Part shown: one piece after another, positions 27,389-43,560 of the stretch
How the letters are laid out: the number at the start of each line of letters is the position of its first letter
Position numbering within the stretch: position 1 is the first letter of the stretch
Origin: Acidobacteriota bacterium
Lineage (GTDB): Bacteria > Acidobacteriota > Terriglobia > Acidiferrales > UBA7541
DNA: 43,560 bases
Assembly: GCA_003223245.1 (NCBI GenBank)
Contig: QHYI01000163.1
Coordinates: 1-43,560, forward strand
Reading direction: 5' to 3'
The notes under the pieces: model-generated
Seen by the model: only the letters and a program-made list of their open reading frames with translations
Told to the model about the DNA's origin: nothing
Database searches by the model: none
Translations under genes and position numbers: made by a program

Positions 27389-27672
27389 GCGAGAATCCGC
27401 CCCGCCAAACGCAATTGCTGATTCTAGTGACTGAAAGCAGCCTCGCCTGTTAAAGAACAGGCCAGACAGGTGTTGTCTCGCGTATCTTTCCAGCTTTTCC
27501 CGGATTGACTACTCCGGGCACAAATCGCCATTGTTGCCGCGTCCGATTCCTTCACAAGTGACTTGCGCTCTGAACCAAAAGTGCCTTGAGGTACATCCGC
27601 CGCGCCGGACAACAGGGGCGTATACGAGGAAAGACGGAACGGCGCCGATTCAAACCCAGTACCGAAGAAGTG
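27389..27672 (+). other. Upstream region of the GH27 gene
   Basis: About 280 bases between the katG terminator and the chosen GH27 start. It holds the inverted repeat at 27445-27462. In-frame codons continue upstream of the GH27 start to 27586, but their translation is not signal-like. No clear sigma-70 promoter was found. Confidence 0.45.
27445..27462. promoter_or_regulatory. Inverted repeat GCCTGTT-AAAG-AACAGGC
   Basis: Perfect seven-base arms with a four-base loop, between the katG terminator and the GH27 gene. There is no T-run after it, so an operator or leader hairpin for the GH27 gene is more likely than a second terminator. Confidence 0.4.
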
Positions 27673-29892
27673 ATGAAGACCAGCCTCGATAAGACCCATG
27701 GAGGGCGCGCCTTGAGCTTGCGAAAACGAATGATTACACAGAGCCTCGGTCATCGCTTGACGAAGATCCTTGCGGCGCTGTGCTTCTTCCTCGGCTCTCT
27801 GGCCAATGCGCAGGTCAACGGAGCCGGCGACAAACCATATCTGGGGTGGAGTAGCTTTCCCGAGCAAACGGTACGGAGTAATTTTCTTACCCAGGCAAAC
27901 ATGATCGTCCAATCGGATGCGCTGCGGGCTTCCGGCCTTCAGGTCCATGGTTTCCGTTACATTAATCTGGACTCCGGATGGCAAGGTAGTTTCGATAGTT
28001 ACGGGCGCCCGATCCCCAACCCCGCAACCTTTCCCGACATCTCTGCTCTCGTCGCACACATTCACCAGAACGGCCAAAAAGCTGGAATTTATTGGATTCC
28101 AGGTGTGGAATATCCGGCTGTTGTCGCCAACCCCACCATCCTTGGAACGCCCTACCATATTCAGGACATACTCGCAGTTCCGAATCGAGCAGGCAATGCC
28201 TTTGGCATACCGGGAACCACGTCTCCTTATCACTATAAGATTGATTTTGCAAAGCCGGGCGCACAGGAATACATGAATTCTGTGGTGGATTTGTTTGCTT
28301 CGTGGGGCTTTGATCTCATTAAGCTTGACGGCGTTACGCCGGGTTCCTACAGCTATAACTTATCTATCGACAACCGGGCGGATGTACGGGCTTGGTCCAC
28401 CGCGATTGCCCAAAGCGAGCGCCCAATTTGGTTGACCATCTCCTGGGCGCTGGACAAGGACTATCTTAGTATTTGGCAGCAGTATTCCAATGCGCGTCGG
28501 ATTGAGGGTGACGTTGACTGCGAGCGCAACTGCGCCACGAGCACAAACTGGGCCTTGACTTCATACCGCTTTTACGACCTTGTGGGATGGCAAAACGCTT
28601 CTGGTGTCACACTCGGGTGGAATGATCTCGACTCGCTCGAGGTGGGCAGCGCCAGCTCAGGCTTGAGCGACGAAGAGCGCCGAACCGCCACGACACTATG
28701 GGCGATAGCCAACGCTCCGATGTATCTCGGCGGCGACTTGACTGCGCTGGACGATATAGGCAAACAGCTGTTGAGCAATGACGAGGTGATCGCGGTAAAT
28801 CAGTCCGGACATCCCGGACAGCAGATTTTAGGCGGCGACACACCTGTTTGGGCATCAGCGCTTGGCGACGGAACGTATTACGTGGCTTTGTTCAACCTGA
28901 ACGCGTTTCCCTCTCCCGTCGATTTCCCATGGAGCCGTATGGGCTTCGCGAACGCAACGCAGGTGCGTGATTTGTGGAGCCACCTTGATCTTGGAAACTT
29001 CAACCACGGCTTCAGTGCGGTTATCCCTGGCCACAGCGCACGACTGCTGAAGCTGACGGCCAGAGGAAGTGCCGCGGAAGCGCCTTCAGCCATTTCGCAA
29101 AGCTATGAGGCAGAAGCAGCCACGCTAAACGGTACTGCCGTAATTGCCAAGTGTGCGGCATGCTCTGGTGGAAAAAAGGTTGGCGGCCTTTGTTGTGGCG
29201 CTAACAACTACGTCATTTTCCCAAACGTCGTCGTCCCCCGCAAAGGAACCTATCTGATGCAAATCGATTCAATGACTCAGGGACCTCGCTCGTTACTTTT
29301 CCGCGTCAGCGGCGGTCATTTCACAACGCTCAACGTAGGTGGGGGAAGTTTTTTCCTGCCATCGAGCACAACCGTACCCGTCGAGTTGGAGGAGGGAATT
29401 AACAGCATCCAATTCGGCAACCCCACGAGTTATGCCCCCGACTTGGATCGTATCGTGATTAGCGGAAATGGATCTGCTTCTCCTCCAGAGTCCATCACCT
29501 ACGAAGCGGAGAATGCCACACTGGAAGGCGGGACAGGACACTTTTACTGCGAATATTGCTCGGGCGCTGCGGAGGCAGGCTTCATCGGCGGCAGCCCGGA
29601 AAACGACGTACTCTTCTCTGACGTTACCGTCCCAGTCTCCGGAACGTATGAGATGGAGATCGACTATTTGACCAGCGGGCCGCGGTCATTTTTCATAAGC
29701 GTCAACGGGGGCCCCGGTGCGGAACTGGATTTAAATGGCAGCAGCTTCAGCTTGCCCACCAGCACGGTAATCCCGGTTCAGTTAAAGGCTGGTTCGAATA
29801 CCGTCCGATTCGGAAACCCCACGGGGTACGCGCCAGCGCTCGACCGCATTGCGATACCCTTAACGCCGGCCTCGACAACGACACAGGAATAG
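27673..29892 (+). CDS. GH27 glycosidase (alpha-galactosidase family) with two CBM35/CBM6-like domains
   Basis: 739 residues from the ATG at 27673, with GAAGAAG six bases upstream; a second ATG at 27730 lacks a ribosome site. The signal peptide ends near GSLANA. The GH27 barrel (about residues 52-420) has PYLGWSSF, RYINLDSGW, the nucleophile D219 in DLIKLDGV, the acid/base D280 in RRIEGDVD and WNDLDSLEVG. The second aspartate of the usual galactose-binding NIDDCW motif is serine (S101) here, so the preferred sugar may not be alpha-galactose; GH27 also contains beta-L-arabinopyranosidases. Two jelly-roll carbohydrate-binding modules follow (SYEAEAATLNG to LDRIVISG, and TYEAENATLEGG to LDRIAIPL). 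Secreted or periplasmic. It converges on the GH30 operon. Confidence 0.88.
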   Translation: MKTSLDKTHGGRALSLRKRMITQSLGHRLTKILAALCFFLGSLANAQVNGAGDKPYLGWSSFPEQTVRSNFLTQANMIVQSDALRASGLQVHGFRYINLDSGWQGSFDSYGRPIPNPATFPDISALVAHIHQNGQKAGIYWIPGVEYPAVVANPTILGTPYHIQDILAVPNRAGNAFGIPGTTSPYHYKIDFAKPGAQEYMNSVVDLFASWGFDLIKLDGVTPGSYSYNLSIDNRADVRAWSTAIAQSERPIWLTISWALDKDYLSIWQQYSNARRIEGDVDCERNCATSTNWALTSYRFYDLVGWQNASGVTLGWNDLDSLEVGSASSGLSDEERRTATTLWAIANAPMYLGGDLTALDDIGKQLLSNDEVIAVNQSGHPGQQILGGDTPVWASALGDGTYYVALFNLNAFPSPVDFPWSRMGFANATQVRDLWSHLDLGNFNHGFSAVIPGHSARLLKLTARGSAAEAPSAISQSYEAEAATLNGTAVIAKCAACSGGKKVGGLCCGANNYVIFPNVVVPRKGTYLMQIDSMTQGPRSLLFRVSGGHFTTLNVGGGSFFLPSSTTVPVELEEGINSIQFGNPTSYAPDLDRIVISGNGSASPPESITYEAENATLEGGTGHFYCEYCSGAAEAGFIGGSPENDVLFSDVTVPVSGTYEMEIDYLTSGPRSFFISVNGGPGAELDLNGSSFSLPTSTVIPVQLKAGSNTVRFGNPTGYAPALDRIAIPLTPASTTTQE

Positions 29893-29938: not shown

Positions 29939-31495
29939 TCAGCGCAGTCGTCGCGACCCACCAGGGCCAGTGGTCCGCGACACTTCTTCCAGCACAAACG
30001 TGTATACCGATCTTGGATACAGATCGCTGGTGTACGTCTTCTTTGCTGGATCAAACGATAACCTATCGCTGTGCTGTTTCCAGTCGGGGACCTCGCCTCC
30101 GGGAGCCGTCGTAGTGGCAATCCGCTGAACAACACGACCGGCAGCGTTGAACTTTGACAAATCATATCTGATCGACACTCGGTCAGCGCCGGTCACGGTG
30201 ACAATCACCAACTTTCGCTCGCTCTCGTCGTAGGCTGCAATCGAGTTTGGATCGTTTATTTCGATGATGTGAAAACCGGGCCGCACATAGCGGGTGAATT
30301 GTCCAAATACGAAGAATTTCCGATTAACGCGAACCAGGTCCGTTCGGGTCTCGGGCTTGATCTGGTCCCCAGTGTCGACGTATGTGGCATTAATAAAGCC
30401 CCACCCGGACTCGGGTTCCACCGGCTGCCAGTAGACCCAGGCTCTGGGCTTGAACTCGCGGACATCAAGAATAATGGACTGAGCCATCTCGAAGCCTGAG
30501 CCGTCCGGACCGCCGTACTCCGATTGCCAAATGTCTTTGTCCCCGGCCGCTTGCCGAAGGGTATTTCGGTTAGATCCTCGGTAAGGGTGCGTGCCTCGGT
30601 AATAGCCGTGCACATTCACTTTTCCGACCATTGCTCTTGTGGCGGTATCGAAGGCACTCCAGGTGTGCAAGGCAACATCAACATCGTTTTCGTCGGAAGC
30701 TGCAATGGGCACTTCGCTGAGCTGCCCTCGGTCGAGCGCCTGCCGCAATTTCTCGAGAATGACTTTTTGGGTGGCGATATCGAAGTGGCAGCCCTCCTGA
30801 CGTTGGGGATACTTCCACCAGTCAGCCGACGGCTCGTTGAACGGCTCTACCGAATGAAACTTAACTCCCCAATGGTCGGCAGCATAGCGCGCTACGGTGG
30901 CCAAATAGACAGCAAAGCGCTCGTAGTTGGCTGGCGCGAGGCAGTCGCCCCCGCTGTCGCTGCCCGCGGTGCTGCTGTTGGAATTCATCCACCACATGGG
31001 CGAGTCGGAGAACAGCTCGAACACATCTGCGCCGCGCTCGCGAGCCTTGAGCATCATGGTGCGCTGGTTCAAGTCAGCGGCCCAATTCCAGCTGGGTGAA
31101 TTGGGATCCTCGGTGTTTGGATCCACCCAATATCCGTGAATATCCATTTGCCATTTCAGTTTGGGACCTTTGTTTTCGCGTGGCTGATTGATTCCTCCAC
31201 CGCCCACGTTGTAGCGCACGACATTGAGGCCGAGCCCAGGATAGCCATCGACTGACTTGAGCGTGTAAATAAGGTCCGCATAGTAGTCGGCGTTGCCGGT
31301 TCCGCCAATGGCACGTCCCCACCATGCCAGCGAACTGCCCCAGCCCTCCCACTTACCTTGGTCGTGATCGGGGTAGACCATAGCAACCTTCGCCTGTCGA
31401 CCCGAGGTGTCGCGCCGGTGCGCACGATTTGCACCAAACAAGCAACTCGCTGCCAACGTAGTAATCAGGAGTATCGAGCGGAGAGGGACGCGCAT
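29939..31495 (-). CDS. GH30-type endo-beta-1,6-galactanase-like glycosidase
   Basis: 518 residues from the ATG at 31495, chosen because GGAGG lies eight bases upstream and it opens a signal peptide (MRVPLRSILLITTLAASCLF). The frame extends upstream into the epimerase gene. The barrel starts with KWEGWGSSLAWWG and has RYNVGGGG, FSDSPMWWMNSN, the acid/base E221 in VEPFNEPSADWWKY and the nucleophile E326 in IWQSEYGG, the pattern of GH30 (PF14587-type, endo-beta-1,6-galactanases among them). The last 100 residues form the small beta-domain typical of the family. Likely cuts galactan side chains of arabinogalactan or related glycans in the periplasm or outside. Last gene of the sugar operon, 32 bases after the epimerase-like gene. 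Confidence 0.82.
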   Translation of the reverse strand: MRVPLRSILLITTLAASCLFGANRAHRRDTSGRQAKVAMVYPDHDQGKWEGWGSSLAWWGRAIGGTGNADYYADLIYTLKSVDGYPGLGLNVVRYNVGGGGINQPRENKGPKLKWQMDIHGYWVDPNTEDPNSPSWNWAADLNQRTMMLKARERGADVFELFSDSPMWWMNSNSSTAGSDSGGDCLAPANYERFAVYLATVARYAADHWGVKFHSVEPFNEPSADWWKYPQRQEGCHFDIATQKVILEKLRQALDRGQLSEVPIAASDENDVDVALHTWSAFDTATRAMVGKVNVHGYYRGTHPYRGSNRNTLRQAAGDKDIWQSEYGGPDGSGFEMAQSIILDVREFKPRAWVYWQPVEPESGWGFINATYVDTGDQIKPETRTDLVRVNRKFFVFGQFTRYVRPGFHIIEINDPNSIAAYDESERKLVIVTVTGADRVSIRYDLSKFNAAGRVVQRIATTTAPGGEVPDWKQHSDRLSFDPAKKTYTSDLYPRSVYTFVLEEVSRTTGPGGSRRLR

Positions 31496-31527
31496 GATCA
31501 ATCCTCCAATTACAGAGCGACGTAAGC

Positions 31528-32490
31528 TCAGCAGAACCGCTGTTGGTCGATCTGCTGTACTCGCAGCCGCAAGCTCCAGTTCTTGGTGCTGCCGGGTCGG
31601 AGCAGATCGTTTTCTCCACGCGCAATCGCTTCGCACAAGGAATCAGGCCGCCCGCTACATGGCTCCAGGGCCGCCGTGTAGTGCCCATGCGAGGGGTCGG
31701 GCCATCCGCCCTGGCAGATCCAAAGGCCGATGTAGGGCACGGTCATCGAGTCAAAGAGAAAGGAAATCGATTCGCTGGAAGCCGGCTTTAGAAACGAGCA
31801 ATTCCCTTCGGTAAGCCCACCAGTGAACACCTTGTCCGCAAAGCCGGCGGTCGGAGGAGCCAGGATGTCAAGACGTCGGCTGACACCCCGGGCTTCCGCC
31901 ACCGGCCAATAACATCTGTCGCCGAATTTCCCCAGGCGATCGTTGAGCGAGTAGTTGACCAACACTTCCTTGACCTCGGCTGGCAGGACGATTTTGCTTC
32001 CAGGCTCCACCGCCAGCAGCGGATGCGCCGACCAAAGGAATTTGATTTCTGAATCGCTCTCATTCACAAGCTCATAATCGATGACTACATCTTGCGATTC
32101 GAGACGAACGGTTTTGGTTAAGCGATATGGTAGGACTCTTCCGGAGGCGGAAAGACAGAGCTGCTCACTCGAAATCCTGACCTGCCAATATACGGACCAT
32201 AGTTCTCCGTGATCAGGCAGCAACTGCCCGCTGGTTGGGTCACGGCAGGCTGACACAGTCGGCAAACATTCATCGAAGCCGCTGGTGTCAAATGCTTCAA
32301 ACGGATCGCCGTATGTCGGACGGCGGAGAGGCCTTTGTGGCTGAAGGAGAAACTCGTGGCCGCTGGAGATCCTGACCAGAGAGGTCATTTTGCCGCCTAT
32401 TTCTGGCAGGAACCGCGCCCGCACCATGCCATTGTCCAACGTGACGCGATGCAGTCCACCAACAATTACGTCTTCTGTGATTACGGTCAT
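31528..32490 (-). CDS. Aldose 1-epimerase (galactose mutarotase)-like protein
   Basis: 320 residues with no signal peptide; cytoplasmic. The fold is galactose-mutarotase-like: TLDNGMVRARFLPEIGGKMT at the start, H94 in LLPDHGELWSVYW, a second histidine H156 in FLWSAHPLL and the glutamate E276 in YTAALEPCSG, placed like the catalytic His/Glu of GalM. The order and spacing differ from classical GalM, so it may belong to a relative acting on other sugars. Interconversion of sugar anomers after uptake by the adjacent sugar porter is the natural inference. The ribosome site is weak. Third gene of the operon. Confidence 0.75.
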   Translation of the reverse strand: MTVITEDVIVGGLHRVTLDNGMVRARFLPEIGGKMTSLVRISSGHEFLLQPQRPLRRPTYGDPFEAFDTSGFDECLPTVSACRDPTSGQLLPDHGELWSVYWQVRISSEQLCLSASGRVLPYRLTKTVRLESQDVVIDYELVNESDSEIKFLWSAHPLLAVEPGSKIVLPAEVKEVLVNYSLNDRLGKFGDRCYWPVAEARGVSRRLDILAPPTAGFADKVFTGGLTEGNCSFLKPASSESISFLFDSMTVPYIGLWICQGGWPDPSHGHYTAALEPCSGRPDSLCEAIARGENDLLRPGSTKNWSLRLRVQQIDQQRFC

Positions 32491-32587: not shown

Positions 32588-34030
32588 TTACCAGGCGCCT
32601 GCGGGTCTTCCCGTCAGATCGCGTTCGATCTGTTCCAAGGTCTTGCCTTGTGTCTCCGGCACACGCCAGTAAACAAAAAGGAAGCCGAGCAAGCAGATCC
32701 CCGCATAGCTCCAGAAGGTCCCGGCCGAACCTAAATCCTTGTTCAACATTGGGAAACTAAAGGCCAACAGGAAAGATGCAATCCAGAGCGCCGAAACCGA
32801 GACGGAGACCGCCGCACCGCGCACGCGGTTGGGGAAGATTTCCGAGATGAGCACCCAAGTCACTGGCGCCAGCGTGAGCGCATAAAAACCAATGGCGCAG
32901 AGTGTGAGGAGCAAAATCGGCAAACCTTTCAGTCCCATGCGGTAAGTGAATCCTAATACGGTATGTGAAAGCGCAATTCCGGCGCAGCCAAATAACATCA
33001 AGGCCCGGCGTCCGAAGCGGTCGATCAGTCCGAACGCAATCAGCGTGAAAAGAAGATTGACCGCGCCGGTGATCACGATGTTGAACAAAACGCCGCTGAC
33101 CCCGTATCCTGCCTCGCGGTAAACCTCTTCCGCGTAATTGAAAATGATGTTGATCCCGCTCCACTGTTGGAGGACAGCAAGCGCGACTCCGATGACCAGA
33201 ATCTTCAGAATTCGCGGCGAAAGCAGCTGCTGCCAGGCGGATCCAGTTTGCGCTTCTGTTTCCAAGGTGCCCCCGATTTCCGACAAGGTATGCTGCGCGT
33301 ATGGTTCTCCGCCGATGCGCGCCAGAACCAACCGGGCGCCCACGCTGTCGCCAGTTGCTACCAGCCAACGTGGGCTCTCGGGGATGAATAGAGCGGTGAC
33401 GAAGAAAACCATCGCTGGAACCGCGATTACCGTGAACATCCAGCGCCAGGCGTATTGTCCGTTCCAGGACACCCGAATCATTTCAGCCGTTGCATTTTGC
33501 GGAACCCGCTCGGCGATCAGCCAGTTGACAATCTGCGCCAGCAAAACCCCGATCACGATCATCAACTGGTTCGCTGCTACGAGCCGCCCACGCCAGCTCG
33601 CCGGACTGATCTCCGCAATGTAGGTGGGAGAAACATTTGAAGCCATGCCGATAGCGACGCCACCGATGATGCGCCAAACAATAAAAAACGAAAAGGTGAA
33701 CGCCCAGCCCGTCAACACCGAGGAGATGCCAAAAAGTATCGCCGAGAGGATCAGCAGCTTCTTGCGGCCCAGGCGGTCGCTTAATCCGCCCGAAAGGCAA
33801 GATCCGAAGAGGCAGCCGATCAGGGCGCAGCTATTGGCCCAGCCGATGAGTTCTTCGGATGTGAGCCGAAAATAGCTCTCGTAGAATGGCTTCGCCCCGC
33901 CGATGACAACCCAATCGTAGCCGAACAATAATCCGCCAAGCGCTCCCGCCGAGGCGATCGTTAATACATACGCGGCGTTAAAGCGTTCCCCTTCTTTGGT
34001 TCGAGAGGCGGCGCGGCTAGCCATGATCAC
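32588..34030 (-). CDS. Sugar porter (MFS SP family, XylE-like) sugar:H+ symporter
   Basis: 480 residues; a GTG start overlaps the upstream stop (GTGA), with an ATG two codons later. Twelve hydrophobic segments are visible. Sugar-porter signatures are present: GGLLFGYDWVVIGGA in TM1, LSDRLGRKKLL between TM2 and TM3, WRGRLVAANQLMIVIG, FIPESPRWL before the central loop, LQQWSGINIIFNYAEEV in TM7, GLIDRFGRRALM and VPETQGKTLEQIE at the end. It probably brings monosaccharides (galactose, arabinose or similar) released by the exported glycosidases into the cell. Second gene of the operon; the epimerase-like gene follows 97 bases later. Confidence 0.92.
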   Translation of the reverse strand: MIMASRAASRTKEGERFNAAYVLTIASAGALGGLLFGYDWVVIGGAKPFYESYFRLTSEELIGWANSCALIGCLFGSCLSGGLSDRLGRKKLLILSAILFGISSVLTGWAFTFSFFIVWRIIGGVAIGMASNVSPTYIAEISPASWRGRLVAANQLMIVIGVLLAQIVNWLIAERVPQNATAEMIRVSWNGQYAWRWMFTVIAVPAMVFFVTALFIPESPRWLVATGDSVGARLVLARIGGEPYAQHTLSEIGGTLETEAQTGSAWQQLLSPRILKILVIGVALAVLQQWSGINIIFNYAEEVYREAGYGVSGVLFNIVITGAVNLLFTLIAFGLIDRFGRRALMLFGCAGIALSHTVLGFTYRMGLKGLPILLLTLCAIGFYALTLAPVTWVLISEIFPNRVRGAAVSVSVSALWIASFLLAFSFPMLNKDLGSAGTFWSYAGICLLGFLFVYWRVPETQGKTLEQIERDLTGRPAGAW

Positions 34031-37000
34031 CGAGAGTGCGAAACGTCCACGAGTTGCAGCTCTAGTTCTTCCAAGAAATCCGCAGCGAAGGGATAGCTCT
34101 GATCGAGCGAAAGGACTTCGTTAATGAGCTGCTGCGCCTTTTTCCCGTCGCCTAGCCCGAGGTAGGCTTGAGCTTTAAGGAATGTCCCCTTGATGCGGTT
34201 CCGCATTTGCAGATCGTCTTCGAACAGCAGCATGGTTGGGAGCGACGTCGCGAAGTAATCGATAACAGCTGGGCGTCGAATGAGTTCCTCGGCGTGCTTG
34301 AGCACCGAACGCAAGAGATCCTCTGCTTCGGCGTGGCACTCAAGGCGCTTCAGCGCCAGCGCACTGTAATAGGTCATTTCCGAGTATGGCTTGACGCTCA
34401 TCTGCTGGAAATCACCCTTCTGCCCCGCAGCCCGTTGCCACCATTGCCGCGCTGCGGCCGAATCTCCGCTGGCCGCGAAACCAACCCCAAGCCAATAAAA
34501 GACATGACTTTGATTGGCCAAGACGTGCTTAGCTTCGCCAAGATTTTCGGGGCAATGAAATGCGGCCTCAAAGAATGCGCGGGCTTCTGTAGGATTTCCT
34601 TTAGCCAGGGCTTGACGGCCGAGCCCGAGGTGCGTCCGCACATGCTCGTCGAGGGCCAACCCCTCACCGCCTTCCCACGGTTGAAACTGGCGCGAGCCGA
34701 TCACCTCGAGAGCCTTTTCGTGCTGACGGGTAAGGTTATAAAGAGTGGCCAGTTCAATCGACAAATCGTCCCGAGAACTGACCAGGGTCGGATATCTTTC
34801 CAACTCGGCAAGCCGTCGCTTTGGTGATTCTCCCGCTCGCTTCCACAATTGGTCGCGCTCATAAAGCACTCGAGCGTCTTCAGGGTTGGCGCGCAATGCC
34901 TTATCAAACGCGGACCGCGCCGCCCGCGAGTCTCCCATCACATTGAAATAGGCAATTCCAAGGTTCCGCCATACAACAGAAAAGGAAGGGTCGCGTTGTG
35001 CCGATTGCTCCCAGAGACGAATGGCTTCATGATGCCTTCGCCGGTCATACCGAAAATTCCCGAGGTAGTATGCGGCTCGAGCGTCCGCCGGATTCCGAGC
35101 GAGAGCTGCCTCGAGAAAGATCATCTCCTCCAGTCGGCTGGGAAAGCAATAATCCGGACTCGCCGCTGCCGCCCCCGCATAAGCCGTAGCTGCGCCTGCT
35201 GTATCGCCCAGCTGCTCAAGAAAATAGCCGCAAGCATAACGCATCATGGGGACGGAGCCGTCTTTCGCTTTTTCGTCGGCGCGGTTCACTATCTCAATCG
35301 CTTCTTGAAACAGACCGGCGCGTGCGCACTCAATCGCCTTGTCCAGAAGCACCTGGTTCTCCACCTTGGACAAGCCGCCAGCAAGATAGCGAGCCTCGCA
35401 ATCCAAAGGATCGAGCGACAGTGTCTCGCGCAGCAGATCTTGCGCTTCCTCCAGCTCCCCCAGCTTGCGCAACACGATCACCGCGAGGTTCCGCGCCATC
35501 AAATGGTCCGCATTTCTCCGCAGGCAATCCTCGAGGTGTTGCCTAGCCTTCTGCCAGTCGCCCCGTTTGGCGTCGAGCTCTCCGAGCGCCAGGCAGGCGG
35601 GAGACTCCCATGCCTGATTCCACATCGCCTTACTAAAGGCATCGTAAGCCTCCCGATCACGACCGAGGTAACGCAAGGTTAGTCCGAGGTTGTAATACGC
35701 CTCTCCGTCTGCGGGATTGGCATTCCATTTCGTCAATCTCAAGATAGCTTTGCGGAAATACTCCTCAGCTTGCGGAAGCTCGCCTCTCCGGAGGTGCCAC
35801 AGACCCATTCTGTTGTTCGATCGTGCGTCGCCCGGGTCGCGGCGGAGTGCTTCACGCCAATAGGTGTCGGGATACCGTGTGGCATGCCGGTATTGGTCAA
35901 GATGCAATCCGGTTAGGTACAACTCGTCGTTGCTTTCAATGAGCTCGGGCAGCGGCGGAGCTGTAGCCGGCGCCGGGGATGTGCGCTTCTCCCTGGGCGG
36001 TGGCGAGTACCGGAGCAGTTCCCTGTTCTGCTTTGTTTCAACAAGGACTTGGATGTCCGTCTCCTTAGCGGCTGAGGGCAATTCACATGGTTCGAGCATT
36101 GGCCGCCCAGGCACCAGGTCACACGTCCACACACGGACTTCATCGCGGCCCGCCATCAAACGCACGCTTGCTCCTGGGAATGGTTGGGTGACACAAATCC
36201 CCACTTGCCCCTTTCCCTCCGAGAAACGCAAACTGAGCGCGGCATCCCGGTTGGCCTTTTGGGCCGGCCCGATTTCCTGGATGGGGTACCAATACTGGCT
36301 GAAGACTTTGCTTTCCCCCGGAGCCAGGAAGGAGAAATCGGGCTGGTTATCCGTGAAGACCCCGGCCATCAATTCGATGTAGGGTCCATCTTCATCGGTC
36401 AGATTGCGGTCCCAAGCATAGCCGAAGTCATGATTTCCCCAGGTCCACTGCTTCTTGCCAGGCGAGATGTGATGATCACAAACATGAATCAAGCCGGCCT
36501 TTCGCTTGTGGTCATAGCCTCCCAGAAAATCTTCTGCAGAGCCGACGGCCATGTAGCTGGTGGGCACAGGGATATTGGCGTACCAACTTAGGTCATTCGC
36601 TGCGTAAGTGCCGGGCGGGACGTAGCTTCGAGGCCGTTCGTCGTCAGGAACGCCATTTCTTGCTCGCTCGCCGTAGTTCACACCATAGTAGAAGCCTTCG
36701 CAAAGAGGAAAGCGGCTCACTGCGCGCCTGGCGTGGTCGGCAACATACTGGACGTCCGGGGGGAAAAAGGATTGGTAGAGTTCATGAACGGGTACCCCGA
36801 CATTGGCCCACCACAAGAAGGACTGCATAAACGGCGTACGGTTATAGAGTCGGACCTTCAGCTCGATGTAGCTTCTTGCTGGGTGGAGGCAGATGCCATG
36901 CATCCCCTTCATGCGGTTCAGGGGATCGTGATCGGAACACCAAATCGTCTGCGAGCCGTCAGCATGCTTTTCAATTTTCGCCTCGACCGGCATGAACGTG

Positions 37001-37416
37001 GCGGGCCGGTGATGCTGAGGCCAGTTGAACTCGACGCCGCCGGAAATCCATGGACCGGCGAGGCCCACCAGCGCAGGTTTGATTACGTTTTGGCGGTAAA
37101 AGAAGTCATAGCCGTTTGTTTTGTCCAGCCCCACATGGATTCGGCCGCCAATCTCCGGCAACACCATCACGCGAATGAATTCATTTTCTAGATGCGCGGC
37201 CTGCCATTGGTGTTCAACCGCTTTTGTAGCAATGCGATCGGTGAAGGGAAGTGGGTAGACACGCCCGCTGCTTCCTTGGTAGACGCGCTTCTCCAAGAAC
37301 ATCGGGTTCTTGTCGGGCAGCATGGGCAGGTAGCTGGGAATCGTGACCGGCGCAAACCAAGCTTTCACCGTGCCAGTCTGGTCTGGCGGTGCCTTCGGTA
37401 ATTCAAAGCGCTTCAC
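34027..37416 (-). CDS. DUF5107-TPR protein
   Basis: 1129 residues from a GTG start (MKRFELPKAPPDQTG); no signal peptide, so cytoplasmic. The first 420 residues are a DUF5107-type domain, related to galactose mutarotase-like folds: LENEFIRVMVLPEIGGRIHVG, YDFFYRQNVIKPALVGLAGP, GGVEFNWPQHHRPATFMP and GNHDFGYAWDRNLTDEDGP. A beta region and a proline-rich linker (near 480-500) lead to about fourteen TPR units to the end. First gene of the operon with the sugar porter, epimerase-like and GH30 genes. A sugar-metabolising or sugar-sensing role is inferred from this context; DUF5107 is not characterised to my knowledge. A promoter and operator lie 150-210 bases upstream. Confidence 0.82.
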   Translation of the reverse strand: MKRFELPKAPPDQTGTVKAWFAPVTIPSYLPMLPDKNPMFLEKRVYQGSSGRVYPLPFTDRIATKAVEHQWQAAHLENEFIRVMVLPEIGGRIHVGLDKTNGYDFFYRQNVIKPALVGLAGPWISGGVEFNWPQHHRPATFMPVEAKIEKHADGSQTIWCSDHDPLNRMKGMHGICLHPARSYIELKVRLYNRTPFMQSFLWWANVGVPVHELYQSFFPPDVQYVADHARRAVSRFPLCEGFYYGVNYGERARNGVPDDERPRSYVPPGTYAANDLSWYANIPVPTSYMAVGSAEDFLGGYDHKRKAGLIHVCDHHISPGKKQWTWGNHDFGYAWDRNLTDEDGPYIELMAGVFTDNQPDFSFLAPGESKVFSQYWYPIQEIGPAQKANRDAALSLRFSEGKGQVGICVTQPFPGASVRLMAGRDEVRVWTCDLVPGRPMLEPCELPSAAKETDIQVLVETKQNRELLRYSPPPREKRTSPAPATAPPLPELIESNDELYLTGLHLDQYRHATRYPDTYWREALRRDPGDARSNNRMGLWHLRRGELPQAEEYFRKAILRLTKWNANPADGEAYYNLGLTLRYLGRDREAYDAFSKAMWNQAWESPACLALGELDAKRGDWQKARQHLEDCLRRNADHLMARNLAVIVLRKLGELEEAQDLLRETLSLDPLDCEARYLAGGLSKVENQVLLDKAIECARAGLFQEAIEIVNRADEKAKDGSVPMMRYACGYFLEQLGDTAGAATAYAGAAAASPDYCFPSRLEEMIFLEAALARNPADARAAYYLGNFRYDRRRHHEAIRLWEQSAQRDPSFSVVWRNLGIAYFNVMGDSRAARSAFDKALRANPEDARVLYERDQLWKRAGESPKRRLAELERYPTLVSSRDDLSIELATLYNLTRQHEKALEVIGSRQFQPWEGGEGLALDEHVRTHLGLGRQALAKGNPTEARAFFEAAFHCPENLGEAKHVLANQSHVFYWLGVGFAASGDSAAARQWWQRAAGQKGDFQQMSVKPYSEMTYYSALALKRLECHAEAEDLLRSVLKHAEELIRRPAVIDYFATSLPTMLLFEDDLQMRNRIKGTFLKAQAYLGLGDGKKAQQLINEVLSLDQSYPFAADFLEELELQLVDVSHSR

Positions 37417-37572: not shown

Positions 37573-37593
37573 CCGTGTCCGTTAACGGCACGG
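37573..37593. promoter_or_regulatory. Candidate LacI-type operator over the sugar-operon start of transcription
   Basis: A 21-base imperfect palindrome: CCGTG, one T, the perfect ten-base palindrome CCGTTAACGG, then CACGG. It covers about -3 to +18 of the predicted minus-strand transcript, where a repressor would block initiation. Related copies lie at 42014-42031 and 43413-43430. Confidence 0.6.
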
Positions 37594-37596
37594 ATG

Positions 37597-37625
37597 AAGA
37601 TACCCATAGCGCGGATTGCTGTCAA
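37597..37625 (-). promoter_or_regulatory. Sigma-70 promoter of the DUF5107/sugar-porter operon
   Basis: On the minus strand TTGACA (37625-37620, perfect), a 17-base spacer and TATCTT (37602-37597, 4 of 6). Transcription would start near 37590, giving a leader of about 175 bases to the GTG at 37416. Confidence 0.6.
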
Positions 37626-37787: not shown

Positions 37788-40310
37788 ATGAGGTTTGCTT
37801 CGGGTCCCTTGAGCATTCTGATCTTTTTGCTCCCGCCTCCAGCTCGAGGCGCACAGCGCGCACCTGCGGCATCCCCCTCTCAGGGCGTCACGAACCCAGA
37901 AAGTCGAGGAAGCCGTTTGTTTTCTGCCGCAGAATATTTGCTGCAAAGGGGTTCCGTCCAGCAAGCCCACGAAAAGGTCGACGAAGGGCTGAAACTCGAT
38001 CCTTTCAATGCGCAAGGTTACAATTTGCTGGGGCTCATCTACCAGGCGGAACACCGATACGCCTTGGCTGCAACGGCTTTCCAGAGGGCTCAGAAAATCG
38101 CGCCAGATTCGGTCGAGATTCTCAGCAATCTCGGAAATGTTTATTTTCTCGAAAAAAAGTTCGAGCCGGCGGAAAACGAATTTCGCCATGCTTTGCGTCT
38201 GCAACCGGCAAATCGAGACGCAAATTACAGTCTTGGTCTTGTGTTGCTCAGAGAACATCGCGCGGAGGAGGCCATCCAGTATTTCCAGGCGGTCGAGCCC
38301 GCTGACACGCGCTCCCTGTTTAATCTGGTCCAAGCGTATTTCCAGGCCAAGCAAACGGAGCGGGGTTTGAAGACAGCGGAACAACTATCCGGGATGGCAA
38401 AAAACGATGTAAGGGTGCACTTTACGTTGGGCGTGGCGCTTGCCGCCAACAAGCAGTACGCAGCCGGCGTGCGCGAACTGGAAGCGGCGGACGCGATCCA
38501 ACCCGGCACTTTCGAAATCCTGCACAATCTGGGCCAGGCGTACTTGCAAAACGGGCAGATCGAAAGAGCTCAAGCGGCCCTTAGCCGAGCGCTCCGGTTG
38601 CGGCCCAAATCCGTTCCGACGCTTTTCTTGCTGGCTGAGACATATCAAAACCAACACGAAGATCTGAACGCGCTGGAGCTTCTGACCCAGGCGCACAAGC
38701 TTTCGCCAAAAAACACCGACGTCATTTTTCTTCTAGCCCGGCTCATGATGACGCAGGCCTACTACGAGGATGCCATACCGCTTCTAGAGAGCGGGGTGAA
38801 GACCGCTCCGACGCGCCCCGATCTTCACGCGGCGCTCGGGGAATGCTATTTCAGCGACGGGAAGGTTCAGAAAGCGATTCTAGAGTTTGAGAAGCTTCTG
38901 AAATTCGAGCCTTCAGCGGGATCCTATGCGTTTTTGGCGCTCTGTTACCGTCACCTTGGCCAATTTGACCAGGCAAAAAAATATCTTTCCGAAGGGCTTA
39001 AGTCCGACCCGCGCAACCCAGGGTGCCTATATAACATGGGATATATCGCCAGCCGGGAAGGCCACCTTGAGGAGGCGGAAGCGTGGCTGGGGCAAGCGGT
39101 CGCGGCCGATCCGAATTACGTCGACGCTCTTTTAGAACTTTCGAATATAAAGATGCAAGAGGGAAAGTATCGAGATGCCGTTCCGCTTCTCGAGAGATGC
39201 GCGCAATTAGAACCGCGTCGAGCCCCAGTTTATTACAAGTTGGCAACGGCGGAGCGGAATCTCAAGGAGATGGAGGCTGCTGAAAGAGATTTGAAGGTAT
39301 TCGAAACTCTGTCCCGTGATCCCAGTCCAGGCCCTTATCCTTATCAGCACCTTTTCGACTACTTGGATAAACGCGCCGGTCTTCCTCCGCAGGAGCAATC
39401 GAGATTCGACTTGGCGCAATTGCAAGAAGAAGCGAAGCGGCATCCGGGCCGACCTCGAGATCTCTATTTGCTAGCTGAAGCTTATCTCAAGCTTGGCCGG
39501 GCCGACGCGGCGGAGCAAACTATCGGGCAGCTGGATCAAATAAGCCAAGGCGATTTTCGAACCGCGGTGGGAGTTGGCGTTCTTTTGGCTCGCTATGGTT
39601 TGTACGCCCAAGCGATCGCGCACTTCCAGGCGGCTCTCCAGGCAGACCCGCATTCAAGTGACGCAGCTTATGACCTTGCCGACGCCTACTTTCGAGCCCA
39701 TGACTATCAGCACGCGCTCGCCGCAATCCAACACATCTCGACGAATGAGCAACAGGACCCGGCCTATCTCTCTCTGCTGGGCGACATTGAAGCTCACCTT
39801 GGGCGGACGGAGGAAGCGGTTCGTTCTTTCCGACAGGCGATTGCCAAGAGCCCTTACAACGACGTGAACTACTTGTCCTTGGCGATGACTTATCTTCGGT
39901 CAGGGAATACGGCTCTTGCCCGTGAAGTTCTCGGTGAGGGGCTGTCCCGGACTCCGGATTCCGGCCGGCTTTTCTGGGGAAAGGGGGTGCTTGTGGCGAC
40001 GGAGGGAAATCCTGAGGAGGCGGAAAAGTATCTCGAGAAGGCTGTGGAGCTGCTGCCTCAGTGGGCCGGAAGTTACTCAGCGCTGGGGGTTCTTTATTTC
40101 AAGACGGGCCAAATAGAGAAAGCCAAGGAGGTCTTAAAAAAATTTACCCGGAACGGCCCGCAAGGCGCGCTCGATGTGCAGAATATTGACCGCCTGTTAT
40201 CCGCCGCTTCGCAGAAAGAGTCTGCAGCTGGAAATCCCATCGCCCTTTCACCTCAAGCTCGGCAGGAGTTTCTGGCAATGGCTCTGTCGCTAACCGATGA
40301 TGTTCCCTGA
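37788..40310 (+). CDS. Large exported TPR-repeat protein
   Basis: 840 residues from the ATG at 37788, chosen because it opens a signal peptide (MRFASGPLSILIFLLPPPARG); the frame continues upstream without such a feature and the ribosome site is weak. The rest is almost entirely TPR: GYNLLGLIYQAEHRYALAA, LSNLGNVYFLEKKFEPAENE, HFTLGVALAANKQYAAGVRE, LHNLGQAYLQNGQIERAQAA, LYNMGYIASREGHLEEAEAW and YSALGVLYFKTGQIEKAKEV, some 18-20 units, with one less regular part around residues 530-560. Probably a periplasmic superhelical scaffold. It converges with another TPR gene (40391-41815). No enzymatic domain was seen. Confidence 0.87.
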   Translation: MRFASGPLSILIFLLPPPARGAQRAPAASPSQGVTNPESRGSRLFSAAEYLLQRGSVQQAHEKVDEGLKLDPFNAQGYNLLGLIYQAEHRYALAATAFQRAQKIAPDSVEILSNLGNVYFLEKKFEPAENEFRHALRLQPANRDANYSLGLVLLREHRAEEAIQYFQAVEPADTRSLFNLVQAYFQAKQTERGLKTAEQLSGMAKNDVRVHFTLGVALAANKQYAAGVRELEAADAIQPGTFEILHNLGQAYLQNGQIERAQAALSRALRLRPKSVPTLFLLAETYQNQHEDLNALELLTQAHKLSPKNTDVIFLLARLMMTQAYYEDAIPLLESGVKTAPTRPDLHAALGECYFSDGKVQKAILEFEKLLKFEPSAGSYAFLALCYRHLGQFDQAKKYLSEGLKSDPRNPGCLYNMGYIASREGHLEEAEAWLGQAVAADPNYVDALLELSNIKMQEGKYRDAVPLLERCAQLEPRRAPVYYKLATAERNLKEMEAAERDLKVFETLSRDPSPGPYPYQHLFDYLDKRAGLPPQEQSRFDLAQLQEEAKRHPGRPRDLYLLAEAYLKLGRADAAEQTIGQLDQISQGDFRTAVGVGVLLARYGLYAQAIAHFQAALQADPHSSDAAYDLADAYFRAHDYQHALAAIQHISTNEQQDPAYLSLLGDIEAHLGRTEEAVRSFRQAIAKSPYNDVNYLSLAMTYLRSGNTALAREVLGEGLSRTPDSGRLFWGKGVLVATEGNPEEAEKYLEKAVELLPQWAGSYSALGVLYFKTGQIEKAKEVLKKFTRNGPQGALDVQNIDRLLSAASQKESAAGNPIALSPQARQEFLAMALSLTDDVP

Positions 40311-40390: not shown

Positions 40391-41815
40391 CTATTGTGAC
40401 CGGCCGTCCTTCTGGCTTCCCCGAATGGAATAAACAAACTGACGAATCCGCTCGCGCTCTTGATTATCCTCGGCTAGGTGGCGCGCGTAGAGCTTTTGAT
40501 GAAGGGCGAACTCTTTCTCAGCGAGCTCCTTTTTCCCTAGGTGGACGTAGGCTTGGCCCAAAAGATAGTGTGCTTCAATGAGCTTCGGGTCGAGCTGGAC
40601 TGCCCGGTTGTATTCCGGGACAGCTTCGGAGTATTCGCGCTGCTCGGAGTAGAGCTTTCCTAGTTGCAAGTGCACGTCAGCGTAGGAAGGATCGAGTCTC
40701 GCTGCCTTCTCGAGCAGCGATACGACCTGGGGCAGAACGACATCGGAATTTTCCGCTCCCTTGAACTTCCACAAACTCATCGCGTAATAATAAGCAGCCC
40801 GCGTGTCATTAGGACAGAGATCCTCAAAACGTCGAAATCTCGCAATGATTTCGCTGGCTTCGCCCGGCGCCCGTTCATAAGCGTTGCTCAGGAAATAGTA
40901 AGTATGAGGATCGGAGGGGGCGAGATCGGTGGCCCGGAGCAAGGCCTTTACCGCTTCATCGTAATCGCCACGCCAGTAAAGGGCCAGACCCAGCCCGACG
41001 GCGAAGGGCACAGAATTGGGATACCGCTCGACTCCCTGGGAGAAAATCTCGACCGCCGGATTCCAGGTGTGGTGCAGCAAGTATTCGCTGCCCCAGTCGA
41101 AAATATTCTGTTCGCTTGGATCCAGGTGGGCGGCTTGCTGGTATTCCTTTGCCGAAGCCAGATAATCCCCCGACCGTTCGTCAACTTCGGCGAGAAGGTC
41201 GTGCAATTCGGCTGTTTCTCCGGTGCGGAGGAGTTCTTGAATCTGCCGGCGAGCCTCTTCGAGCTGCCCATTCTGCTCATAGGCTAAGGCCAGATCGTAG
41301 CCATTTTCGTAAGAGGAAGGACGAAGATGTTGGGCTCTGGCCAAGTAAGGGATGGCGCGCCCCATCCTGCCCGCTCTGGCGTAGAACTCGCCAAAGTCGT
41401 GATTCGCCTCAAAATTATCCGGCTCGGCCTTGACAGCCTGTTTGAATTCCGCTTCTGCCTGGCTGCTCTTGCCGAGCCGTGCCAGATTGACGGCCAGGTT
41501 TGCGCGCGCCGCCGCAGAAGCCGGGTTCAAGCGAACGGCTTCTTGCAAGACGCGATTGGCTTCCTCATCTTTACCTTCCGCAGAATAAACAAGACCCAGG
41601 AGTTCGTCGACCTGAAAGCTTGGCGGAATTTTTTGCGCCAAGGCTTCCAGCTCCCCAGCCGCCAGAGCATACTGGCCGGATTGATAGTGCGAGAGGGCTT
41701 CTTGGAACTGCTGCTGCGGCGGGCCGCCTCGCCGGGGTGCATTCTGCGCCCCCAAACACGTGACCAAAACCAGGGCGACTGACAGAAAACCCGCTGTCCT
41801 GCGAACTGCGCGCAT
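40391..41815 (-). CDS. Exported TPR-repeat protein
   Basis: 474 residues from the ATG at 41815, opening a signal peptide (RRTAGFLSVALVLVTCLGAQ). About ten TPR units follow: FQEALSHYQSGQYALAAGEL, DELLGLVYSAEGKDEEANRV, ANLAVNLARLGKSSQAEAEF, NHDFGEFYARAGRMGRAIPY, LQLGKLYSEQREYSEAVPEY and HYLLGQAYVHLGKKELAEKE patterns. No other domain is seen. TAAAAT at 41830-41825 lies nine bases before the ATG with no ribosome site between, so a leaderless or nearly leaderless message is possible. Likely a periplasmic scaffold; the partner is unknown. Confidence 0.87.
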   Translation of the reverse strand: MRAVRRTAGFLSVALVLVTCLGAQNAPRRGGPPQQQFQEALSHYQSGQYALAAGELEALAQKIPPSFQVDELLGLVYSAEGKDEEANRVLQEAVRLNPASAAARANLAVNLARLGKSSQAEAEFKQAVKAEPDNFEANHDFGEFYARAGRMGRAIPYLARAQHLRPSSYENGYDLALAYEQNGQLEEARRQIQELLRTGETAELHDLLAEVDERSGDYLASAKEYQQAAHLDPSEQNIFDWGSEYLLHHTWNPAVEIFSQGVERYPNSVPFAVGLGLALYWRGDYDEAVKALLRATDLAPSDPHTYYFLSNAYERAPGEASEIIARFRRFEDLCPNDTRAAYYYAMSLWKFKGAENSDVVLPQVVSLLEKAARLDPSYADVHLQLGKLYSEQREYSEAVPEYNRAVQLDPKLIEAHYLLGQAYVHLGKKELAEKEFALHQKLYARHLAEDNQERERIRQFVYSIRGSQKDGRSQ

Positions 41816-42187
41816 GGCGAGCAGATTTTAACACCCTTCGGACAAACCAAGCCAATCAAGCGATATAGGTGAATATCGTCCGCAGCCTGCAGGTGGAGGA
41901 AAGGCCAGAGGCAGGGAGCGGCTTTTGGCGAAAGCTCTCGGTCGAGCGCCGTGCCTGCACTTCTGGCGCTGAGGCACAACGCTAGCGTGCCCGGACGAAG
42001 CAGGGAAGCCAATCCGTGCCCGTACACGGCAACCCTCTCATCCCCCCGCTGCGTGGAGGGGAGGGCCCATCACCGATCCGCCCTCTCGATGGCCGCGCGA
42101 ACGCATTCCATGCAACCTCGTGCGGCCGGGCGCTCGGGAGCGTGCTGCAAATTCTCTTTCTCGGATGTAGACTGAGGGTCCAGGTTC
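41816..42187. other. Divergent region between a TPR gene and the LacI-type gene
   Basis: 372 bases without a recognised gene. It contains a -10-like TAAAAT for the minus-strand TPR gene and the second copy of the operator-like motif (42014-42031). No other structure was recognised. Confidence 0.5.
42014..42031. promoter_or_regulatory. Second copy of the operator-like motif
   Basis: CCGTGCCCGTACACGGCA matches 15 of 18 bases of the copy at 37573. Its own arms are CCGTG-N6-CACGG. It lies 157 bases upstream of the LacI-type gene, which would fit autoregulation. Confidence 0.45.
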
Positions 42188-43253
42188 ATGAAAAGAATCG
42201 GCATTCAAGAAATCGCGCGGTTGGCTAGTGTGTCGATTGGGACAGTCGACCGCGCTCTCCATGGCCGCAAAGAGATCAGCGAAGACACCCGGAAACGCAT
42301 TCTGCAAATCGCGAGGGAACACAAATACCGGCCCAATTTCGCGGCTCGCGCCTTGTCGGTTGGCAAGGCGACCATACGGATTGGGCTGTGCCTCCCACGT
42401 GAGGTCCACTATTTTTTCGACGAAGTTCGCGAAGGATTTCTCACTGAAGCGCGTCGTTACCGGGATCTCGGCGTGGAAGTCATCTATCGCCCGTTCGAAC
42501 GATTAGGAGTTGGCGAGCGGGAGACGATGGCAGAGCTTGTTCGTGGCCGCCCGCAGGCCCTGGCTATTTGTCCCGGGCAACCCCGAGAATCTTGCGCCGC
42601 TGATCAATCATGCGGAAGAGCGCCATACCCACGTGATTTGCGTGAACACCGACGCTCCGGGCACGGCCCGCTCTGCAGTAGTCTCGGTTGACCCGGTCGT
42701 GAGCAGTCATCTTGCAGCTGAATTGATGACTAAGCTGCTCGGTGCGAAGGCGGTCGTCGCGGTAATCACCGGGAGCACAATCACAGAGGACCACCGAAAA
42801 AAAGTTCAAGCCTTTTCCGAAAGCTTCACTCGCTTCTCGCCTCAAAGCAGGACCCTTGAGGTTGTCCAGGGACATGATGACGAAGACGAAACCTTTCAGA
42901 AAGTCTATGACCTCCTCGGCCGCCATCCGCATTTGGGAGGGTTGTACGTCAGCACGGCGAATTGCCTGCCGGTGTGCCACGCGATCGGAGCCAGCAGCCT
43001 GCGTGACAAAATCAAAGTGATTGCCACCGACTTGGTTAGGGAAATGGTTCCTTACTTTGAGCGGGGTCTTATTCTGGCCTCGATTCACCAACGTCCCTAC
43101 CTTCAGGGCCAAGTGGCAGTGCGTTTGGTGGTGGACCATCTTGTGAATGACCGGCCCATTCCCTCCGCCTACTTTCTAACTCCTCACGTCGTCCTGCAAT
43201 CGAACATGCATCTGTTTCGCGAGCTGCGTCAAGACGGGTTACCGGAAGGTTAG
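42188..43253 (+). pseudogene. LacI-family transcriptional regulator with a one-base frameshift
   Basis: The ATG at 42188 has GAGGG nearby. The LacI helix-turn-helix (IGIQEIARLASVSIGTVDRA) and hinge helix (PNFAARALSVGK) are intact, followed by a periplasmic-binding-protein-like sensor domain starting TIRIGLCLP. The first frame reads LAICPG and then runs to a stop at 42691. The sensor domain continues in the next frame as NPENLAPLINHAEERHTH and goes on normally to 43253 (ending MHLFRELRQDGLPEG). Removing one base in the CCCGGG at 42572-42577 gives PGNPENL and a 354-residue protein of normal length. Everything else looks well kept, so this is either a recent mutation or a sequencing error. Likely regulator of the nearby sugar genes (inference from three operator-like motifs). 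Confidence 0.87.
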
Positions 43254-43335
43254 GCGCCTTTCGAGACCTAAAATGCGCGGCAAAGTGTCGCTCGCGGCGC
43301 GCGCGCGAGCCTTGTCTTTGGGCATCAGAAGATTT

Positions 43336-43380
43336 TTAGAAGTTTTCGCTGTTAGAAGTTTTCGTTAGAAGTTTTCGCTT
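43336..43380 (+). repeat. Three tandem copies of TTAGAAGTTTTCG(CT)
   Basis: Copies at 43336-43351, 43352-43364 and 43365-43380, sharing a 13-base core with a three-base tail missing from the middle copy. They run straight into TTGACA. Likely slippage duplication, or repeated sites for a regulator or an AT-rich upstream element. Confidence 0.75.
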
Positions 43381-43430
43381 GACAAGTCCGAAGACGCTAG
43401 AGTAGTTTTCCGCCGTGTACGTTAACGAGA
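43379..43430 (+). promoter_or_regulatory. Possible promoter with third operator-like motif
   Basis: TTGACA at 43379-43384 (perfect), an 18-base spacer and TAGTTT at 43403-43408 (weak). CCGTGTACGTTAACGAGA at 43413-43430 matches the copy at 37573 in 15 of 18 bases and again covers the predicted start of transcription. The controlled gene would lie beyond the window. Confidence 0.4.
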
Positions 43431-43560
43431 TGCGCCGCTAAAGGGTGTCCGGATTCTCTTCGCAGCGTAATCCTTGATCGCCAAAGCCGTTTGGCTGGCT
43501 CGCTAAGCTGACCCGCCCTTGGGGTGGGAAGTCAAAAGCTGACAGGGGGCCAAAATGTCG

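Follow-up and report, generated by a model that had tools for sequence, protein, structure and literature searches.

Three intergenic sites in a stretch of 43,560 nucleotides from an Acidobacteriota genome (contig QHYI01000163.1, hereafter the window) are very probably operators of a LacI-family repressor that is encoded at 42188-43253 and controls a carbohydrate-utilisation module. Likely members of the controlled set are the operon for a DUF5107 protein, a sugar porter, an epimerase-like protein and a GH30 enzyme, together with a receptor gene and a GH5 gene beyond the window; lacI itself and two genes for TPR proteins belong to it less surely. We infer that the regulon may serve the use of galactan or arabinogalactan.

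The three sites were first described as 18-mers at 37573-37590, 42014-42031 and 43413-43430 in a first-pass annotation, whose sequences and coordinates proved exact, as did its count of 15 out of 18 positions identical to the first 18-mer for each of the other two. All three are non-coding, as had been claimed. In the 29.9-43.56 kb region, transcription units are separated by three intergenic stretches, which make up about 2.4% of the window and hold one site each. The one further gap in this region, 97 bases between the porter gene and the epimerase-like gene, is internal to the sugar operon. A mechanically called ORF with a GTG start begins within the site at 37573; the ATG at 37788, which precedes a signal-peptide-like stretch, is the likelier start of this TPR gene. 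The motif is an even palindrome with a central CG, where the half-sites CGTKWNC and GNWMACG of its core meet, and an even CG-centred palindrome is the usual form of a LacI-type operator. The first-pass annotation had also placed two sites behind a perfect TTGACA. This holds for 37573 and 43413, which sit just past the -10 region, on the start region of two predicted promoters (Table 1). A search to both sides of 42014 revealed no promoter-like pair, the best candidate having 5 of 12 matches. The LacI-family gene reported downstream of 42014 is indeed there, though frameshifted in the assembly.

Table 1. Predicted operators, promoter elements and genes of the proposed regulon, in window coordinates.
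Feature	Coordinates	Strand	Remarks
GH30 enzyme, probable endo-beta-1,6-galactanase	29939..31636	-	PF14587; nearest solved relative 24td, E 3.8e-101
Aldose-epimerase-like protein	31528..32490	-	weak match, under Pfam cut-offs
Sugar porter, major facilitator superfamily	32588..34030	-	PF00083, 364 bits; exceeds sugar porter subfamily cut-off
DUF5107-TPR protein, first gene of the sugar operon	34027..37416	-	PF17128, 176.5 bits, plus TPR families
Predicted operator 1, CCGTGTCCGTTAACGG	37573..37588	.	between divergent DUF5107-TPR operon (-) and TPR gene (+); matrix rank 2; counterpart before DUF5107 in L144
-10-like TATCTT, DUF5107 operon promoter	37597..37602	-	coordinates read from sequence
-35 TTGACA, DUF5107 operon promoter	37620..37625	-	spacing 17 to TATCTT
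Large TPR protein, divergent from the sugar operon	37788..40310	+	start codon uncertain; homologue near LacI and receptor gene in L176
TPR protein, divergent from lacI	40391..41815	-	homologue behind receptor gene in L179
Predicted operator 2 (weakest), CCGTGCCCGTACACGG	42014..42029	.	between TPR gene (-) and lacI (+); matrix rank 3, not above random
LacI-family regulator part 1, DNA-binding domain	42188..42691	+	PF00356, 54.7 bits (cut-off 27)
LacI-family regulator part 2, other frame, sugar-binding domain	42510..43253	+	PF13407, 110 bits (cut-off 35.1); homology from about 42564
-35 TTGACA, receptor promoter	43379..43384	+	coordinates read from sequence
Weak -10, receptor promoter	43401..43406 or 43403..43408	+	AGTAGT (spacing 16) or TAGTTT (spacing 18)
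Predicted operator 3, CCGTGTACGTTAACGA	43413..43428	.	on receptor promoter, between lacI and the right window end; matrix rank 1
First two receptor codons (apparent)	43555..43560	+	TonB-dependent receptor gene appears to run on into C23

The strength of the three sites was assessed by two scans. A degenerate form of the first site, with up to three mismatches allowed, matched the window three times where 0.12 matches are expected, and none of 100 shuffles gave three or more; the pattern was derived from these very three sites. A scoring matrix built on 34 sites (33 distinct) of other genomes, and partly non-blind in that these training sites were selected with a degenerate core from the window and from contig C191 of the same genome, ranked 43413 first (22.3), 37573 second (19.0) and 42014 third (12.25), followed by a fourth match at 11.1. 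As a control, 30 random first-order Markov windows were scored, the top score of which was 11.5 on average and 16.3 at most. Chance clearly does not account for 43413 and 37573, but for 42014 the matrix score alone is not significant. The idea that the score by itself proves 42014 was rejected, since random windows can score higher. The support for 42014, the score of which is no better than that of random sequence, consists of its position and of its counterparts at two loci with orthologous regulators (L143 and L145).

The genes around the sites were compared with those of a CUT locus. An inner-membrane sugar transporter, an enzyme and a regulator are encoded in the window itself; the best solved relatives of the porter are D-xylose-proton symporters, and 24td, the nearest solved relative of the GH30 enzyme, is an endo-beta-1,6-galactanase. 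The TonB-dependent receptor is encoded on contig C23, the start of which (L025:1-592) is nearly identical to the window end (42942-43560), with 92% identity over 621 columns including 16 mismatches and 31 gapped columns. The linkage of the receptor to the window rests on this overlap, in which the differences could be strain variants or point to two copies. One of them is a length difference in a short repeat just upstream of the -35 element, where the window has extra TTAGAAGTTTTCG-type units. The receptor gene on C23 (L025:587-4315) encodes 1242 residues with matches to PF25183 (653 bits) and PF13620. It is followed by the gene of the GH5 enzyme, which is nearest to endoglucanases and does not itself indicate galactan. 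A receptor gene also follows lacI on C191 and at several orthologue loci. Both large TPR proteins of the window have homologues near LacI or receptor genes in relatives (L176 and L179). At the other end of the sugar operon lies a GH27 gene with two CBM35-like stretches (27586-29892), of which an 86% relative is found at the end of a gene stretch in another genome of the genus (G024, described below); none of the top matrix matches in the window is near this gene.

Furthermore, the conservation of the motif beside related lacI genes was analysed. Contig C191 carries a second LacI gene, and the locus set comprised 33 loci with relatives of this C191 LacI and seven with orthologues of the window type (L143-L149), after removal of one duplicate contig, L098 and L149 being identical DNA. 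Up to one mismatch being allowed, the core was present within 450 bases upstream of lacI at 20 of the 37 loci with enough upstream DNA (exact core at 12) and absent at this stringency from the other 17. Before a receptor-like next gene it was present at 17 of 18 loci (exact core at 12), the rows of related genomes in these counts not being independent. A word pattern within the first 130 residues served to select the 18 receptor-like genes and missed some likely receptors, such as those of L093 and L111, both with sites; with any next gene counted, the core was found before 23 of 32, one contig being counted twice. As a control, 719 permuted half-site patterns were searched with one mismatch allowed and gave means of 0.42 (receptor) and 0.84 (lacI). 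Only one permutation, in which the two degenerate half-site positions are exchanged and which matches the same sites, reached the real counts (12 exact matches each; with one mismatch, 21 for lacI and 17 for the receptor). The next-best permutations gave 4 and 6 exact matches and, with one mismatch, 16 for lacI; the corresponding value for the receptor, 13, was seen among 300 permutations. A perfect TTGACA lies 25-59 bases upstream of 16 of the 17 receptor sites, the background in the receptor upstream regions being 2.5 per kb on that strand and zero on the other.

Each of the seven window-type orthologues is accompanied by a site with no more than one mismatch, and five have the exact core. 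In L144 the operator lies between the orthologous lacI and a DUF5107 gene (54% identical), in the DUF5107 promoter. By the first-pass annotation's own account, lack of conservation upstream of orthologous operons would have spoken against its reading; conservation was found at many, but not all, loci and includes this promoter facing lacI. Such conserved operators in front of sugar genes are a feature of LacI regulons and were found here. The repressor-operator reading of the first-pass annotation is upheld by conservation, by position and by co-occurrence with the regulator (see below). Its proposed autoregulatory site, 42014, is the weakest of the three; it is 159 bases from lacI in the window (CGTGCCCGTACACG), and sites at similar distances are present in L143 (CGTGGCCGTACACG, 154 bases) and L145 (CGTGATCGTACACG, 164 bases). 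The site upstream of lacI in L144 is more distant than these, and L146, L147 and L148 have no site with up to two mismatches in the 330 bases before lacI. The site before the receptor gene of L146 is imperfect. Among 59 loci, the residue that follows the conserved serine in the recognition helix was not found to covary with the presence of the motif (p 0.17 for the exact core, 0.48 with one mismatch).

The reading frame of the window lacI is lost near 42566-42590, as placed from alignment edges, between the DNA-binding and the sugar-binding domain. Compared with the seven window-type orthologues, all of which have open frames, the half before the break shows 64-79% identity and the half after it 58-69%, and because both halves are still this similar to open-frame relatives the frameshift looks recent or like an assembly artefact. 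In a tree of 61 rows, made from whole proteins except for the window regulator, which entered by its effector domain only, the window LacI groups with those of L144, L147 and L148 (support 97/93), which all come from a different family (f6) of the class. Among 35 other genomes of its own genus, no match to the window regulator (42564-43250) exceeds 53% identity. These data hint at a possible acquisition of the regulator by horizontal transfer. The 6.3 Mb genome has nine LacI domain matches.

The second LacI gene, on C191, has an open frame, and its product is 51-52% identical to the window LacI. The stretch VSIGTVDRALHGR, which we take to be the recognition helix, is identical in both proteins, and the operators on C191, CCGTTTACGTTAACGG and CCGTGTACGTTAACGC, of which one lies before lacI and the other before the adjacent receptor gene, match those of the window. 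It is possible, if rather doubtful, that the window sites are served partly or wholly by this C191 regulator, the frameshifted window lacI being a dying copy and two pathways sharing one operator. The neighbourhood of the C191-type relatives fits a second pathway: they adjoin genes for xylose isomerase in L087, xylulokinase in L103 and XylF in L106, each of which exceeds one cut-off or more, as well as genes for GH3 (L087, L103, L106) or GH67 (L082) enzymes; an assignment to GH67 at L087, L103 and L106 was rejected when these enzymes proved to be GH3. However, the identity of the window LacI halves to their orthologues, which makes the frameshift look recent or erroneous, argues against a dying copy, and the window-type orthologues have adjacent sites of their own. 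The neighbours of the window-type relatives include, in L146, a galactonate dehydratase that exceeds its cut-off and a short-chain dehydrogenase, and in L143 GH27 and GH59 enzymes. We tentatively consider, without favouring it, that both paralogues, one galactan-type and one xylose-type, share one operator through the same recognition-helix stretch, so that xylan and arabinogalactan use would be cross-wired with mutual backup.

A comparable gene set occurs in G024, of the same genus, where one stretch (L179:700-19900) holds homologues of receptor, TPR, epimerase-like, GH30, LacI, GH2, DUF5107, porter and GH27 genes. Its LacI belongs to another clade than the window LacI, and CGTGCACG-type variants or CGTGCACGTACACG-type palindromes precede its receptor gene. 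In the DUF5107/porter/receptor modules of L172-L174, which also have a LacI of another clade, no common palindrome was obvious.

The frameshift between the two LacI domains and the weakness of the 42014 site could also be taken to mean that the sites are relics of a regulator that is truly inactivated, the operon being constitutive. We consider this improbable, since 37573 and 43413 retain near-consensus cores, and the copy of the latter on C23 differs from it within the core only at a degenerate position (one comparison).

The 6.3 Mb genome was also searched for the motif. There are 12 distinct places with the degenerate core, a number close to the 10 of the reversed control. A GTTAACG half is present in five of the 12 (37574, 43414, C23:446, C191:7420 and C191:9018), C23:446 being a near-copy of 43414. 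The first-pass annotation had expected genomic matches to gather before carbohydrate genes and not at random inside genes, and the search bears this out; all five of these places are intergenic, before lacI, receptor or DUF5107 genes, and four of the other seven (C13:170994 and those on C174, C219 and C232) are within mechanically called ORFs. Among the remaining three, C13:180045 straddles an ORF end, the place on C173 overlaps the start codon of one of two closely spaced genes, and that on C153 falls between two ORFs. The stricter pattern CGTKWACGTTAACG occurs three times in this genome, its reversed control not at all.

Across 61 genomes, CGTKWACGTTAACG is present in 17. It was found in 15 of the 18 genomes with a close relative of the regulator and in 2 of the 43 without one (Fisher p 1.4e-9), the regulator set having been defined after the data were seen as those genomes with a best E of at most 1e-70. 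Within the genus the corresponding numbers are 13 of 14 and 2 of 22. The motif occurs without such a regulator in G024 and G033, and an exact match is missing from G025, G045 and G060, which do have the regulator. The reversed control gave 22 matches in 11 of the 61 genomes compared with 37 real ones, strands being counted apart; in the 18 regulator genomes the values are 6 and 35, in the other 43 they are 16 and 2. Inspection of 24 loci with the strict motif placed the L211 site and one of two in L218 within small mechanical ORFs and the L206 site away from any gene start. The remaining sites are near gene starts, including those of lacI, receptor-like and sugar genes, as named by eye unless profile-tested. 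That the similarity of the three sites is due to chance or marks the site of an unrelated factor, for which the score of 42014 and the genomic count of the degenerate core could be adduced, is very improbable in view of the conservation beside relatives, the co-occurrence with the regulator and the absence of reversed CGTKWACGTTAACG from this genome.

If the LacI-family repressor of the window acts on the three operators, regulation would proceed as follows. Without the sugar ligand, a LacI dimer would bind the palindrome just past the -10 element of the receptor and DUF5107 promoters and block transcription initiation. A sugar freed from the polymer, probably galactose or a galacto-oligosaccharide, would then release the repressor. 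Binding, repression and ligand are inferred here from the LacI family, and it is presumed that the frameshifted lacI, or an intact version of it, still yields a working protein. The receptor would take up the carbohydrate, by analogy to CUT loci.

Acidobacteria are abundant soil bacteria that are hard to culture. For plant-polysaccharide use in these organisms, the work presented here proposes a regulator together with its operator and target genes, and it connects DUF5107 and TPR genes, which have no functional name, with what is probably a galactan regulon. The motif should be helpful for finding further targets in other acidobacterial genomes. Among the literature matches listed, none describes this operator or regulon in Acidobacteria, and the excerpts of PMC4850484 and PMC10766802 contain nothing on either.

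In a survey of LacI regulators from seven phyla, 1173 of 1303 were reported to have an even CG-centred palindrome and 72% to be autoregulated (PMC4052901, Ravcheev et al. 2014); its main text nowhere uses the word Acidobacteria. The window regulon resembles the local LacI sugar regulons of that survey in its DNA-binding and sugar-binding domains, its even CG-centred palindrome and the position of the regulator beside sugar genes, and differs from them, as far as compared, in the operator CGTKWACGTTAACG and the DUF5107 and TPR partners. CUT loci of Xanthomonas can likewise be under a LacI repressor, for example sux with SuxR (Blanvillain et al. 2007, PMC1790865), and like sux the window system combines a LacI-type repressor with an enzyme, an inner-membrane sugar porter and, provided that the contig overlap is genuine, a TonB-dependent receptor. 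Unlike sux, it belongs to another phylum, has other enzymes and three operators with DUF5107 and TPR genes, and its receptor consists of a carboxypeptidase-regulatory domain and a PF25183 barrel. The xylose regulon of Caulobacter, the regulator of which is a LacI protein, is similar in layout in that one palindrome is common to receptor and catabolic genes. This palindrome has 20 bp and precedes the xylose genes and receptors (quoted in PMC1790865). Overall, LacI regulons and LacI-repressed sugar loci with receptors are already known (PMC4052901, PMC1790865), and the window regulon is new for a phylum outside the survey, as judged from the main text of the latter.
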